This document shows, one piece after another, positions 1 to 57,096 of a stretch of DNA of 57,096 nt. This stretch comes from Rickettsiales bacterium (lineage in GTDB: Bacteria; Pseudomonadota; Alphaproteobacteria; Rickettsiales; UBA1997), in the NCBI GenBank assembly GCA_017620845.1, contig JAGAUJ010000021.1:1-57096 (forward strand), written 5' to 3'. The notes below the pieces were generated by a model. The model was not told where the DNA came from, did no database searches, and was given only the letters and a program-made list of their open reading frames with translations. The position numbers and the translations under genes were made by a program. How positions within the stretch are numbered: the stretch's first letter is position 1; every line of letters begins with the position of its first letter.

Positions 1-526
1 CGCCACCAGCACCACCAGCACCACCTTGACCAGCAGTTATATTAATTTCTAACTCACTCTTCTTATCTCCATTTGAACTAAAATTACTACTAGATATGTT
101 ACCACCAGCACCACCAGATTTTCCATTGCCGCCATTGCCGCCGTTACCACCGTTACCGCCATTGCCAGCATCATCGGCACCACTAGTATTCTTACCATTA
201 GTACCAGCACCACCAGCACCACCAGCGCCACCTTTCCCAGATATACAATTTAAAACATTGTCAATTATACTATTATTATTTAAAGAATCAGCCGTTGCAT
301 CACTACCAGTACTAAAAGCATTATCACCAGCGCCACCAGCGCCACCAGATTTTCCATCATCACCATTATGACCACCACCATTAGCACCATCAGCACCCTT
401 TGCACCATCAGCACCCTTTGCACCATCAGCACCCCACACCGGACACACAACACCCACACTTGTAAAACCAAATACAAGCATCAAAATCCAAACAAAAAAT
501 GCACTCCTTTTTAATTTTTCACACAA
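1..526 (-). CDS. Exported glycine-rich repeat protein, 5' end only (runs off left edge)
   Basis: On the minus strand a frame is open from a TTG at 526-524 to the window edge (about 175 residues seen); an in-frame TAA lies at 538-536. The N-terminus reads like a signal peptide: a short basic part (EKLKR), then a hydrophobic run (AFFVWILMLVFGF), ending near PVWGADG. Next comes a collagen-like stretch of Gly-X-Y triplets alternating GAD and GAK, then blocks of GGA and GGN repeats with Ser/Asn/Asp-rich spacers. One Cys sits near residue 90. The TTG start has no good Shine-Dalgarno; the only ATG (481-479) would remove the basic N-region, so I prefer TTG. It is probably a surface or secreted structural or adhesive protein. 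The function is inferred only from composition, and the C-terminus, which would show an anchor or autotransporter, is outside the window. Confidence 0.65.
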   Translation of the reverse strand, partial: MCEKLKRSAFFVWILMLVFGFTSVGVVCPVWGADGAKGADGAKGADGANGGGHNGDDGKSGGAGGAGDNAFSTGSDATADSLNNNSIIDNVLNCISGKGGAGGAGGAGTNGKNTSGADDAGNGGNGGNGGNGGNGKSGGAGGNISSSNFSSNGDKKSELEINITAGQGGAGGAGG

Positions 527-44622: not shown

Positions 44623-47600
44623 ATGACAACTTTTATTTTTACACAAACAATTAATTCAGTTAAAAACACAATAGATAATTTAAAACAGACAATAAATTCA
44701 ACTCCGATAGGTCAATACATAAACTATACTCAAAATAAAACAACCAAAAAAGATGATAAACTAACTGGCAAATTAGCGGAATTATCAATACAAACATCAA
44801 GTTATAATAAAATAATTCCTATAATTTATGGCACAAACAGAATTGCTGGTAATATTATTTGGCTTGGAAACATAAAAGAAACATATAATACAAATGCAAC
44901 AACAATAAAAATAGGAAAAGGTCAAAAAATAAAACAGAGTAGCATTGAATATTTTTATAATTTAAGTTTTGCAGTTGCTATTTGTAAAGGAGAAATTGAA
45001 AAAATAAACAATGTTTGGGCTGATACAAAATTATTAGATTTAAAACAATATAAGTATAGATTTTACAGTGGAAGTAGCGACCAATTACCAGATTCTTTAA
45101 TTGAAGCAATAGAAGGAATTGGCAATGTTCCAGCTTATAGAGACTTGTGTTATATAGTTTTTGAAAACTTCCCTTTAAGTGAATTTAATAATAGAATACC
45201 AAACTTTATATTTGAAGTATCAAGAAAAAATATACAAGAAATGGATAATAACCTATTGGAATACTGTATAAAAGGAATAAATTTACTACCTTGTTGTGGT
45301 GAAACTATTTTAAATACAAAAGTTCAATATAGAGCAGAAGAACAATTTGCTGAATATGCAATTGATTGGGTTGATGGAATTTGGACTGTATTAAATCAAA
45401 ATAATAATGATAAAATTGCTGATGCTTTATATTCATTAAATCATCTTACAAGTGAGTTAAAAAATTGTGAATACTTTATACAACATATACCAATTTTTGG
45501 CGATAATATAAACATTAAAGATTGTTCTTTAAAACCAAGAGTAGAGTTTAATGTATTCACAGGACAAACTTACAATTATGGTTATCCAATTTATACAAGA
45601 CCAGATAGATTTAAAGTTGGAAATAAATGGAATAGATATAATACTCCACTTTTAAGTAAAGATTCTACTGGTAAATTTAGATTATTTGGTGGCTCTATTG
45701 GTGATACTGGCATTTTAAGTTTTTTTGAAGAATTAAAAAATAGAGGTAAAAAAAGTATATTTTGTCCAGAAATATTACTTGATATTGAAGGCGTGCCATC
45801 ATATAAAACATTAACCGGCTCTGCTGATGAAATTACAGATTTTTTTACAAAAGAAAATGGTTATAATGAATTTATTTTACATTATGTAGAATTATTAAAA
45901 GACTATGTTTATGCTTTTATTATAGGAAATGAGTTAAGCAATTTAACATCAATACAAGATGAAAATGGAAATTTTCCAGCAGTGGACAATTTGGTTAATT
46001 TGGCACAACAAGTAAAAAAAATTGTTGGAGATAATGTAAAAGTTGGTTATTCTGCCGGTTATAAAGAGTATCATAGTAATAATTACTGGTATAATTTAGA
46101 TAAATTATGGAGCAGTGAATATATAGATTTTGTTGGAATTAAAGCATTTTTTCCACTTACAAATTCTTTACAAACAGAAATTACAAAAGAAACAATTAAA
46201 CAAGGTTGGATAAATGGTGAAGGTTATGACTATATAACAGAAAATGGTATTCAAATACCAATAGAGCAAAAATATGCTTATAAAAATATAGAATATTGGT
46301 GGAAAAATATTCATATAAACCCAGATGGAAGACAAACTGATTGGGTGCCGGAAAGTAAAAAAATATGGTTTACAGAATATGGTTTTAGATCAATAGATTG
46401 CGCTACAAATGAACCTTTTAAGGGAATTGGAGAGTCACCAAAATATTCTACTGGTAATAGTAATTTTTATGCACAAAAAATAGCAATAGAAGCAACAGAA
46501 GAGTGTTTTAAAAATTCTTCTTATGTGGAACATTTATTTGCATATTATTGGGATTTAAGACCATATCCATTTTTTCCAAATAAAACAGATATATGGAAAG
46601 ATGGTGTTAATTGGCAATATGATTACTGTTTAAATGGAAAAACTGGACTGTCAAATGCAAAAGTTTCAATAAATCAGTTATTTAGTGATACTAATATTGA
46701 TACTAAATTTATAAAAAATATTGAAGTTGATGAGTTTATAGATGGTTTTGTTATTAATAATAGCATGTCAATTAAGGATGTTTTAAATACTTTACAAAAA
46801 GTATATTTCTTTGATTGTGTTGAAAATGATGGAAAAATTGCTTTTATATCAAATAAAACAAATATAAGAGATAAAAATAATATTACAACAATCTATGAAA
46901 ATGAATTATTAGAAATTAATAAAGAACAATTTATTAATGTTGATGTTATAAGTAATACTGAATTACCACAAAGAATTGATTTAGTTTTTTTAGATAAAAA
47001 TAATGACTATGATGCAAAATCTTTATATGCAGAAAGAAATAATACAGATAGTGAAAAAAGATATATTGAAACCTTGCCAGTTGTATTAGATGAAAATAGA
47101 GCAAGAAACATAGTTGAAACTTTATTATATTCCACTTGGTTAGAGAAAAGTATTTTTACTTTTATTTTACCATTAAAATATATTTATTTAGAACCGGCAG
47201 ACATAGTTAATTTACAATTAAAAAATAACACTTATATATTAAAAATTAATACTGTAAAATTAATAGATAACAAAATTGTAATTACTGCAACAATTTTTGA
47301 TAATACTTTATACGATTATCAAAATAATATTACTTTAAATAATAATTTAGAAATATTCCAAGAATCCGGAAGAACACATATAGAAATTATTGAAATACCA
47401 GCAATTAATCAAGATATGATTAATAAAATAAATGTATTTTTCCTTATTAAAAATGAATTAAAAAATTGGCAAGGCGCCTATTTGTATTTTTCAAATAATA
47501 ATCAAAAAAGTTATACAATATTGAATGAAACCAAAACTTTATCCACTATTGGAAGTGTATTAAATACATCACACAATGTAAAACCATATTATTTTGATTA

Positions 47601-48279
47601 TAAAAATAAGCTAAAAGTAACATTTAATAATAAGATAGATACAGATTTATTGTTAAATATTGGTAATTACGAATTATTTAATGGCGTTAATTTAGCAATT
47701 TATGGAAATGAAATTATACAATTTAAAAATATAGTTTTAAATGAAGATGGAACATATACTGTAAGTGATTTGTTGAGAGGGTTGTTTGATACTGAAAATG
47801 AAATAAGTAATCATAAAGAATATGATAGATTTATAATTTTAAATGATAGTATTTTAAGACAAGAATTTAATTATGATAAGATTGATTTTAATTATAGTTA
47901 TAAGGCTGTTAGTATTGGAAACGATATGAATAGTGCTGAAAATATTATCTATACTTTAAAAGGAATCAATTTAAAACCATTTAAACCTTGTCATTTAAGA
48001 TATGAAAAATTTGATACTTATGTTCATTTTGAGTGGAGTGAAAAGGGTAGAGGTTATGTAAATTGGGCAAGTAATAGGGATTATGTGTCTACTGAAAATA
48101 TGGAAAAATATTATTTGAAAATTGTTAAAGATAATAAAACCATTTATTCTACATATTTAAATAATATTAGAAGTTTTGATTATTATTTTGAAAATATAGA
48201 ATTTCCTTTTACAATAAGATTACATCAAGTAAATGATTTATATGGTTTTGGAAATTACATAGAAAAAATAATTGAATAA
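44623..48279 (+). CDS. GTA/phage tail-tip (baseplate hub) protein with TIM-barrel-like domain
   Basis: At 1218 residues this is the largest gene. The N-terminal 210 residues match the tail-tip family (AELSIQTSSYNKIIPIIYGTNRIAGN, described by region about 50-75; then SFAVAICKGEIEKINNVWADTK near 110-130). Residues about 370-660 match the TIM-barrel-like domain of GTA 'megatron' proteins (Rhodobacter capsulatus GTA orf15 type): CPEILLDIEG, FIIGNELSNL, YIDFVGIKAFFPL, and IWFTEYGFRSID near 583, with Glu in the NEL and TEYG motifs as in glycosidase-like barrels. The phage-tail-3-like and barrel repeats follow to the C-terminus. In GTAs this protein sits at the tail tip and contacts the cell surface. 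Base composition equals its neighbours. No capsid, portal, terminase or other tail gene is beside it. Confidence 0.88.
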   Translation: MTTFIFTQTINSVKNTIDNLKQTINSTPIGQYINYTQNKTTKKDDKLTGKLAELSIQTSSYNKIIPIIYGTNRIAGNIIWLGNIKETYNTNATTIKIGKGQKIKQSSIEYFYNLSFAVAICKGEIEKINNVWADTKLLDLKQYKYRFYSGSSDQLPDSLIEAIEGIGNVPAYRDLCYIVFENFPLSEFNNRIPNFIFEVSRKNIQEMDNNLLEYCIKGINLLPCCGETILNTKVQYRAEEQFAEYAIDWVDGIWTVLNQNNNDKIADALYSLNHLTSELKNCEYFIQHIPIFGDNINIKDCSLKPRVEFNVFTGQTYNYGYPIYTRPDRFKVGNKWNRYNTPLLSKDSTGKFRLFGGSIGDTGILSFFEELKNRGKKSIFCPEILLDIEGVPSYKTLTGSADEITDFFTKENGYNEFILHYVELLKDYVYAFIIGNELSNLTSIQDENGNFPAVDNLVNLAQQVKKIVGDNVKVGYSAGYKEYHSNNYWYNLDKLWSSEYIDFVGIKAFFPLTNSLQTEITKETIKQGWINGEGYDYITENGIQIPIEQKYAYKNIEYWWKNIHINPDGRQTDWVPESKKIWFTEYGFRSIDCATNEPFKGIGESPKYSTGNSNFYAQKIAIEATEECFKNSSYVEHLFAYYWDLRPYPFFPNKTDIWKDGVNWQYDYCLNGKTGLSNAKVSINQLFSDTNIDTKFIKNIEVDEFIDGFVINNSMSIKDVLNTLQKVYFFDCVENDGKIAFISNKTNIRDKNNITTIYENELLEINKEQFINVDVISNTELPQRIDLVFLDKNNDYDAKSLYAERNNTDSEKRYIETLPVVLDENRARNIVETLLYSTWLEKSIFTFILPLKYIYLEPADIVNLQLKNNTYILKINTVKLIDNKIVITATIFDNTLYDYQNNITLNNNLEIFQESGRTHIEIIEIPAINQDMINKINVFFLIKNELKNWQGAYLYFSNNNQKSYTILNETKTLSTIGSVLNTSHNVKPYYFDYKNKLKVTFNNKIDTDLLLNIGNYELFNGVNLAIYGNEIIQFKNIVLNEDGTYTVSDLLRGLFDTENEISNHKEYDRFIILNDSILRQEFNYDKIDFNYSYKAVSIGNDMNSAENIIYTLKGINLKPFKPCHLRYEKFDTYVHFEWSEKGRGYVNWASNRDYVSTENMEKYYLKIVKDNKTIYSTYLNNIRSFDYYFENIEFPFTIRLHQVNDLYGFGNYIEKIIE

Positions 48280-51082: not shown

Positions 51083-51706
51083 CTAGAAATCTAATTTCAT
51101 TACAAAACCAAAATTTCTTTCACTTTCTGTATCTTCATCATATACTGCATTGCTTGCTGTTGATTCAGAGTATTGGATACCTCTTAATAGACCAGTCGTA
51201 GAATCACCGTCATCTACTTTTTCATCAACATTATATGCTTCTCTATTTGTTAATGGTTGTTCAGAAAAATCTGATTTCTTACTAAATGCTAAAACATTAA
51301 GACCAGTAAAGTCACTTACCATATAGTTACCACCTTCTGTTGCAGCTTCAGCATTCACTAAATACCATCTAGAACCTTTACCAAATTTAGAAGAAATATA
51401 TTCTTCTCCACCTTCACTTTCTGTGCTTGGTTTTTTATCAATAATACCTTCATTAAATAAAGCTTGTAAAGCACCAGAAGATACTATATTTGGATCAACT
51501 GTTGTATCAGCACCTGGAACTTTACCAAATTGCGCATAATATGTATTGAAAGCAGTTCTGTAATTTGTAGCTTCTGTAACTACTGATCTTAATTGTGCAG
51601 ATTTAATTAAACTTGCACCACCAGTAACACCAGCTATCAACAAACCCATAATTATAAGAACTATTGAAAGTTCAATTAATGAGAAACCTTTATTGTTTTT
51701 TTTCAT
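51083..51706 (-). CDS. Type IV prepilin-like / pseudopilin protein
   Basis: A 207-residue protein with a class III (prepilin) signal: KKNNKGFSLIELSIVLIIMG, cut after Gly7, with Phe then Glu5 of the mature protein, and a hydrophobic helix to about residue 27. The mature part is a globular domain with an Ala/Thr-rich alpha helix (about 30-50) and beta region. It is rich in Ser, Glu and Thr near the C-terminus, and has no cysteine pair. It would need a prepilin peptidase and assembly ATPase encoded elsewhere. It stands alone with its own terminator, so it may be a pilus-like surface fibre subunit or a type II secretion pseudopilin. The long C-terminal domain has no similarity I recognise. Confidence 0.85.
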   Translation of the reverse strand: MKKNNKGFSLIELSIVLIIMGLLIAGVTGGASLIKSAQLRSVVTEATNYRTAFNTYYAQFGKVPGADTTVDPNIVSSGALQALFNEGIIDKKPSTESEGGEEYISSKFGKGSRWYLVNAEAATEGGNYMVSDFTGLNVLAFSKKSDFSEQPLTNREAYNVDEKVDDGDSTTGLLRGIQYSESTASNAVYDEDTESERNFGFVMKLDF

Positions 51707-55267: not shown

Positions 55268-55633
55268 TTATTCCCAAACCCCATCATTACATGTACGAGT
55301 TGCAGATAGGTTTCTAGTTTGAGTTGTATCACTACAAAATATACACTCATAAGAAAATTTTTTAGAAATAGTACAACTAACGCTAACTTGTTTACTATGT
55401 GATGCTGATGCACTTGTTGTGCAACTAAATGATTGAGTAATAGCATCACATGTAGAACATGCTGGTCTAGTAAACGTTCCAGTTAATGTAATATTGTCAG
55501 AACAATTCTTTTTACACCCCCCTCTTGTAGTCCAAGTTCCATTTACACATTCATAATAATGACCACCAGTTTCAGCTTCAAAATTACCAGATATTTTACC
55601 ATTTTTATCCACTTCTTTGTAGCCTGTCATCAT
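55268..55633 (-). CDS. Short cysteine-module protein, out-of-frame companion of the large one
   Basis: A 121-residue frame with 12 Cys and the same module text as the large gene before it: YYECVNGTWTTRGGC and TRTCNDGVWE. It starts 31 bases after the stop of that gene and in a different frame, with no Shine-Dalgarno and no signal peptide. It is therefore either a separate small gene or the tail of the large gene displaced by a frameshift. The second reading would explain why a Cys module without secretion signal is present. Which is right cannot be told from one sequence. Function unknown. Confidence 0.5.
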   Translation of the reverse strand: MMTGYKEVDKNGKISGNFEAETGGHYYECVNGTWTTRGGCKKNCSDNITLTGTFTRPACSTCDAITQSFSCTTSASASHSKQVSVSCTISKKFSYECIFCSDTTQTRNLSATRTCNDGVWE

Positions 55634-55664
55634 ATTTATAATTAAGTAATGTATAATAATAAAC

Positions 55665-57096
55665 TTACTTCAAGTTTTTACCATTGTGTGTTGTTACCAT
55701 AGATGCACTTTTATTTTCTTCTAAACAACCAGTTGGACTACCATCTTCATAAAATTGAGTACAATATTTTTTGTTATTAGGAGAAATATCTACACCAAAT
55801 TGTTCGTTAGAGCAATATGCTGTTGTATTTGGTGTAAAATATTTTATAAGATCTCTATCTTTTAGCCAATTAAAAGTATTTGTTCCATGCGCAATACCAG
55901 CACATGCTACTGTGCTAACATATATACCAAAAGCCAATCCACATCCACCATATCGTTTCCAAGTTCCATTTTCACAAGCATAATGATAACCAGGACTTGT
56001 AAAACTTTTTCCAACAAATACTGTATTAGCACCAATATTATTACTGTCAAACTCTGTATATTTATTACAATAAACATCTATCTTTGTTCCATTAACTGTA
56101 ATGGCATTTTCTAATATAGTTTTTGTTAATGTAGAAACTTTTGATTTGTTAGAAGTATTAAAAATTGTTCCAGATATTATTTTTATTTCTTCATCACTTT
56201 TATAAAACTTACCACCAGTAACCAATGTAGGCACCCCACTACAACTATTAGCAGTTTTAGTCATTTCCCAATTGCCACTTGAATTACAAAATAATCTAAA
56301 ATCATTATACTGACTTGTGTATACACTACCATTACTTTCTGTTCCACTATTTAATACTCTTTTTTGTATTGTTTTTGTATCTATTGTTAATGTTGAAGAA
56401 TTTACATTTGTAAATTGTTCAGCTTTATCGTTAGCTAAATATACAGTATAACCTTTGTTATTTATTTCATCTAAATCACAAGAAGCATAATTTGCTTTCC
56501 AATAAGAATTACCATTATTTATATTTGTTGTATCTTCTGTACAAGTATATACTCTATTACCACTTTCTTCAACAGCTGAACCCGTACTTTCGCCACAGTA
56601 TGCTTTTGTGTTAATATTTACAATAAAATTATTATTTATAGATAAATCTTGTGCAGATCCATTATTTGTAGCATCCTTACATGCCAATATTGGATACATA
56701 CAAGTTGTATTAATAGCAAACTGCATTTTATACAACTGTTCACTTACCATATTTCCATTCTTATCAAACACTGCTGACATATCATTACATCCAGTGAATA
56801 CGCACATATTATTTTCAGTTCCTTCTTTTACTTCCCATTCACTATTTTCATTACATCTTATTACTCTTTTACTTCCTGTTTCTTCTGTATTTAAACTATA
56901 ACCTGTATTACAAGTATCTATTGTAATATATGTATTATAATCATATGTTTTAGATTTATTGTCTTCTAATGTTATATCTATAACATTACTACTATCTATA
57001 TTACTACAAGTTTCATCATTACATAATACCATTTCTATAACACTAGTAGTATTATTACCTAATAAAGATGAATTTGCAGTAAGAGCATCTACTGAA
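55665..57096 (-). CDS. Tandem cysteine/tryptophan module protein, sushi(CCP)-like, 3' end (runs off right edge)
   Basis: The frame is open from the right edge to the stop at 55665; about 476 residues are seen, and the start lies outside. It contains repeats of roughly 75-110 residues, each closing with Cys, a few residues, Trp, then Cys: RCNENSEWEVKEG, YWKANYASC, FCNSSGNWEMTKTANSC, ACENGTWKRYGGC. The first repeat, TCNTGYSLN then VIRCNENSEW, resembles the C-x2-GY-x-L ... C-x-x-x-G-x-W-x-C order of sushi/CCP modules. Such a protein would be secreted and disulfide-bonded. It is Asn/Thr/Ser-rich, with no enzyme motif. Bacterial homology to CCP is my reading, not proven; convergent patterning is possible. 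Confidence 0.7.
   Translation of the reverse strand, partial: SVDALTANSSLLGNNTTSVIEMVLCNDETCSNIDSSNVIDITLEDNKSKTYDYNTYITIDTCNTGYSLNTEETGSKRVIRCNENSEWEVKEGTENNMCVFTGCNDMSAVFDKNGNMVSEQLYKMQFAINTTCMYPILACKDATNNGSAQDLSINNNFIVNINTKAYCGESTGSAVEESGNRVYTCTEDTTNINNGNSYWKANYASCDLDEINNKGYTVYLANDKAEQFTNVNSSTLTIDTKTIQKRVLNSGTESNGSVYTSQYNDFRLFCNSSGNWEMTKTANSCSGVPTLVTGGKFYKSDEEIKIISGTIFNTSNKSKVSTLTKTILENAITVNGTKIDVYCNKYTEFDSNNIGANTVFVGKSFTSPGYHYACENGTWKRYGGCGLAFGIYVSTVACAGIAHGTNTFNWLKDRDLIKYFTPNTTAYCSNEQFGVDISPNNKKYCTQFYEDGSPTGCLEENKSASMVTTHNGKNLK

Follow-up and report, generated by a model that had tools for sequence, protein, structure and literature searches.

CCP, or sushi, modules (PF00084), as in complement factor H, CR2 and CD55, are best known from animals and animal viruses. 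The DNA analysed here, a stretch of 57 096 bases from a Rickettsiales bacterium (hereafter the window), encodes at its right-hand end modules that resemble them, though not every one in full, in the order of four cysteines, in a C-x2-GY motif after Cys2, in a Trp between Cys3 and Cys4, and in a tandem arrangement with short linkers, but that are longer (~80–100 versus ~60 residues), have an extra Cys pair in module 1, score below the Pfam cut-off and are bacterial. A second point of comparison is the Trw system of Bartonella: VirB2 pilins form a surface pilus working mainly in attachment, and for the Trw system it is proposed that VirB2/VirB5 pilins became variable structures for surface attachment (PMC12857230). 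The likeness is that type IV secretion pilins are proposed as surface attachment structures in both cases, whereas Trw varies via multiple sequence-variable gene copies and the family described here fuses modular domains to the pilin. What the window contains is an incomplete, interrupted copy; the wider point worth pursuing is the occurrence of VirB2 pilins bearing animal-type modules.

An interrupted gene for a modular protein

The window is the complete contig C27 of an assembly (G000) of 1.02 Mb in 29 contigs, judged 88% complete, and no sequence past its right edge exists in that assembly. The main ORF (55665–57095, minus strand) encodes a Cys-rich modular secreted protein of 476 residues plus a stop codon, with 20 Cys and 5 Trp; its 5′ end is missing because the contig end cuts the ORF, and the N-terminus of the protein is therefore missing as well. 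Trp residues at 87, 199, 276 and 379 are each flanked by a Cys pair (C81/C98, C185/C206, C270/C285 and C374/C385), giving four C-W-C units against a mean of 0.65 in shuffled sequences (P = 0.0012). Their spacings are exactly 112, 77 and 103 residues, as the original prediction had estimated, and the C-x2-GY-x-L start that it saw in the first repeat is present as CNTGYSL at C62. The closing motif that it ascribed to every repeat, C-x(3-5)-[GN]-x-W-x(4-9)-C, describes one of the four in the main ORF (at C270) but none of the other three, and neither motif of a short neighbouring ORF (55268–55633). Of the at least four repeats that it counted in the main ORF, four are seen as C-W-C units; of the two counted in the short ORF one is complete (CVNGTWTTRGGC) and the other runs into a stop codon after CNDGVWE.

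All modules lie on the minus strand. Module 1 (residues 1–98; 56802–57095) has three of the four CCP cysteines (C2 = 62, C3 = 81, C4 = 98), the first being expected by alignment just past the contig end, together with an extra C25/C30 pair, and its assignment draws on profiles and a structure model. Module 2 (residues 103–206; 56478–56789) has a CCP-like Cys order and an extra C132/C139 pair, while module 3 (residues 206–285; 56241–56480) lacks the second Cys, and module 4 (residues 285–385; 55941–56243) has Cys 285, 343, 374 and 385 in CCP order. Modules 2 and 4 contain all four CCP cysteines and the Trp between Cys3 and Cys4, and the unit formed by modules 2 and 3 is kept in three other genomes.

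Beyond the stop codon, in a different frame, lies a separated C-terminal tail (55268–55669, minus strand), which includes the short ORF and comprises the end of a fifth module and a Cys-rich tail. The short ORF had been taken for a companion, but a separate companion gene was ruled out: the ORF begins inside a module, is without a signal peptide, and belongs to a frame that aligns from residue 1 with the C-terminal end of the full-length relative L055, covering its final module and the Cys-rich tail (34% over 140 columns, E = 6e-15). From these sequences we read it as the broken-off C-terminal part of the main ORF's gene, with a stop codon and a frame change between the two. The tail has no Cys where one would be expected to open the last module, and the window copy, interrupted near its 3′ end, may be truncated, decaying or misassembled there.

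Assemblies break inside genes of this CCP-like family at several places, namely at the right end of the window, at L010 and L059 in the same assembly, at L011 and L012 in the sister species (G001), at L013 (G015) and at L120 (G017), a pattern suggestive of repeats or of variation between strains. A break at a repeat common to the other contig ends of G000 was rejected, as the known contig ends of that assembly have no identical word of at least 21 bases in common. The left end of the window also falls within a gene, in this case for a glycine-rich secreted protein (2–526, minus strand).

Module 1 as a probable CCP module, and the other modules

Direct scans gave no match. Pfam Sushi had no match in the main ORF, in the tail or anywhere in the window's genome; the window protein matched no accepted family in Pfam or NCBIfam, and no relative of it was found in the named genomes; module 1 alone matched nothing among PDB sequences up to E 10, so that a profile was needed. 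Among 344 genomes of the order, however, 11 have a Pfam Sushi match over the cut-off, and a single protein can have as many as eight repeats.

A first profile, built from modules of other genomes selected on their Cys/GY/Trp spacing and excluding the window's genome, matched residues 48–98 of the window protein at 35.8 bits, versus 8.8 bits for the best of 500 shuffles. A profile of aligned modules, likewise without the window's genome, matched residues 14–98 with a score of 36.3 bits; 1000 shuffles in which the cysteines were kept fixed gave no match. An iteration seeded with window module 1 alone gathered 68 modules, and the Sushi cut-off is exceeded in relatives with modules that this window-seeded profile matches. 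When a 52-module alignment that includes the window's row was compared with the PDB as a profile, 75 distinct sequences matched at E up to 0.01, and all 60 of those listed are CCP-bearing proteins, the best among them being CR2 (E = 1.3e-25), although these E-values sum many modules per chain; among the chains shown, no single module does better than E = 0.0018. A six-module profile confined to the window's genome and the sister species, which avoids the pull of distant Sushi-positive modules, gave 16 PDB matches up to E 10 (best E = 0.012), and all 16 were CCP. For the module 1 family, then, PDB searches by profile have returned CCP matches, and from the six-module profile CCP matches only, an outcome that might well have gone the other way. 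With direct scans having failed, it is these relatives that lead us to see in module 1, very probably, a divergent CCP/sushi module.

The remaining modules are less uniform. Module 4 matched the CCP-like profile with 78% probability but found no match in the PDB; module 3 aligned over nearly the whole CCP-like profile at 9.1 bits, and its end matches in hhalign. These matches weakly suggest that modules 3 and 4 are of the CCP kind. Module 2 matched no CCP-like profile, its own profile likewise found nothing in the PDB, and its identity is uncertain. Modules 3 and 4 and the broken last module are probably of the same kind as module 1. The sushi reading of the original prediction is thus well supported for module 1, by profiles and by relatives over the Pfam cut-off, and faintly for modules 3 and 4, but not for module 2, and the window protein itself stays below that cut-off.

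The AlphaFold2 model of module 1 is a confident one (mean pLDDT 87.8, pTM 0.80), while a model of modules 2–4 made from four sequences reached a pLDDT of 37 and was set aside. Foldseek returned no significant match for module 1, the best CCP row standing at rank 18 (E = 3.5); because the module is short, we do not count this against a CCP fold. A viral structure library also yielded no significant match. VIA-align superposed many CCP chains on it end to end, with Z up to 3.9 over ~55–67 aligned residues, and placed CnaB-type domains of the pilus adhesin SpaC at the top (Z 4.7 and 4.0), the CCP rows lying within 1. Modelling one repeat, which had been proposed as a check, has yielded a model that is compatible with the CCP fold but not decisive for it, as the Z-scores of the CCP and CnaB rows lie so close together.

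Relatives and fusions to VirB2 pilins

The closest modules to module 1 are found in L010 and L011, of the window's genome and its sister species, respectively; these proteins combine a glycine-rich domain with between three and eight CCP-like modules and seem to begin with a signal peptide. Other relatives have a TrbC/VirB2 pilin (PF04956) as their N-terminal domain: L055 (1954 aa) continues with 12 CCP-like modules and two ALK/LTK glycine-rich domains (PF12810), and L056 (1396 aa) with nine and one, respectively. The ALK/LTK domain, a C-terminal partner of CCP-like modules in these relatives, is absent from the window gene, with no match in the main ORF or the tail. The window's genome itself encodes one complete VirB2–CCP protein of 725 aa (L112:8673–10847, on contig C7), with a TrbC/VirB2 start followed by about seven CCP-like modules; its TrbC score is 29.1 bits in the genome search and 25.1 in hmmscan, against a cut-off of 27.9, and it is the single TrbC match over the cut-off in that assembly. 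Its ortholog in the sister species (L114:5948–8284, contig C34 of G001) has a TrbC score of 32.6 bits, also about seven CCP-like modules, and the same neighbour downstream.

The modules joined to VirB2 are not of one type. Two proteins from the same bacterial family (L162 and L163) follow the VirB2 start with EGF-like modules and a glycine-rich domain, and a third (L160:1305–2474, contig C15 of G299) combines, in one 390-residue ORF, a VirB2 start, EGF-like modules and a C-terminal SUEL galactose/rhamnose-binding lectin (45.4 bits, cut-off 31.4). Ordinary TrbC/VirB2 matches in the family lie in ORFs of about 110–160 aa, and the CCP-bearing ones are hundreds of residues longer. An ORF of at least 370 aa with a TrbC match over the cut-off occurs in 13 of 61 family genomes, with a fourteenth (G004) cut by a contig end; two of these 14 long extensions (G016 and G284) are Cys-poor and of another kind. 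In some further sushi-like proteins a type IV pilin motif forms the start, either below the cut-off (L074) or as judged by eye (L060 and L070). The N-terminal methylation motif that starts some CCP-like proteins of the order is also seen in a type IV pilin-like protein in the window (51083–51706, minus strand), ~3.5 kb from the CCP-like gene. Among open-licence full texts we found no paper joining a VirB2 pilin with sushi, VirB6 with sushi, or VirB2 with an EGF-like domain, and a VirB2 pilin that carries animal-type modules has apparently not been described before.

Alternative readings

An unrelated Cys-rich bacterial module, such as a CnaB-like or other beta-sandwich stalk, might have converged on the C-x2-GY ... 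C-x-W-x-C pattern, and the SpaC domains heading the structural comparison, the Foldseek result and the sub-cut-off Pfam score would all be in keeping with such a lookalike. We nevertheless consider it quite improbable: the PDB profile matches listed are CCP and nothing else, relatives that match the window-seeded profile pass the Sushi cut-off, and CCP chains superpose end to end with Z-scores close to the top.

Two further alternatives concern the gene itself. It could be a second VirB2–CCP fusion, with a lost TrbC/VirB2 start and modules decorating a type IV secretion pilus, as would suit a genome that has one complete gene of this sort, conserved in the sister species, and a tail whose match, L055, starts with VirB2; as the only over-cut-off TrbC match in the assembly belongs to the complete gene, and the closest relatives of module 1 seem to start with a signal peptide, we think this unlikely. 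That the gene has become a pseudogene, or is a dead paralog that no longer functions, is a somewhat doubtful but serious possibility. It would account for the stop codon at 55665, for the out-of-frame tail lacking its expected Cys, and for a short fragment of the module 2–3 region elsewhere in the genome (C7:11913–12023), yet 476 codons have stayed open despite an AT-rich genome, the conserved Cys and Trp positions are retained, and an assembly error may explain the interruption.

Proposed function

We think it fairly probable that what the ORF encodes is the C-terminal end of a long surface protein, secreted and built of tandem disulphide modules, in an uncultured alphaproteobacterium with a small genome, and that this protein belongs to a modular adhesin family. 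In such a protein the tandem modules would act outside the cell as a rigid stalk braced by disulphides, holding a binding region out towards the surfaces of a host or of neighbours; the 1-3/2-4 disulphide pairing, the surface exposure and the binding are all predicted features. Such stalks are preceded in relatives by a VirB2 pilin domain, by the start of a type IV pilin or by a Sec signal, and at their far end comes an ALK/LTK-type glycine-rich domain or some other region. The adhesive idea gains weight from relatives whose comparable Cys-rich stalks have a VirB2 or type IV pilin at the base and a glycine-rich or lectin domain at the tip, and the terminal lectin of L160 fits it; we infer an adhesive or host-interaction role for the window protein family.

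Modules fused to VirB2 could decorate a surface pilus, and the relatives with CCP modules on type IV secretion pilins suggest a little-known family of modular attachment proteins. Only tentatively, and with more doubt than confidence, do we propose that a family of small-genome Alphaproteobacteria turned VirB2 pilins into modular adhesins via animal-type modules (CCP-like, EGF-like, ALK/LTK glycine-rich and SUEL lectin), the window gene being either a pilin fusion or a partner protein. The many CCP modules of this bacterial lineage, which occur alongside ALK/LTK glycine-rich domains and are joined to VirB2 pilins, prompt the question of whether these modules were acquired from animal hosts or have older common roots, as well as whether a type IV secretion pilus may carry adhesive modules of its own or relies on a VirB5 tip.

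Two VirB4 genes and three giant VirB6-like ones are present in the window's genome, a set reminiscent of the VirB4 and VirB6 duplications in Rickettsia (PMC2653234). On a contig with VirB4 and giant VirB6 genes (C18) it also encodes a protein that appears by eye to be ankyrin-repeat-like (L167:628–1470). In another genome, a VirB6/TrbL-type protein of 1655 residues (L062:1648–6612, contig C169 of G020) bears an ALK/LTK glycine-rich domain. Finally, the window encodes, within this 1 Mb genome, a gene-transfer-agent-type protein with GTA TIM barrel and phage tail domains (44623–48279, plus strand).
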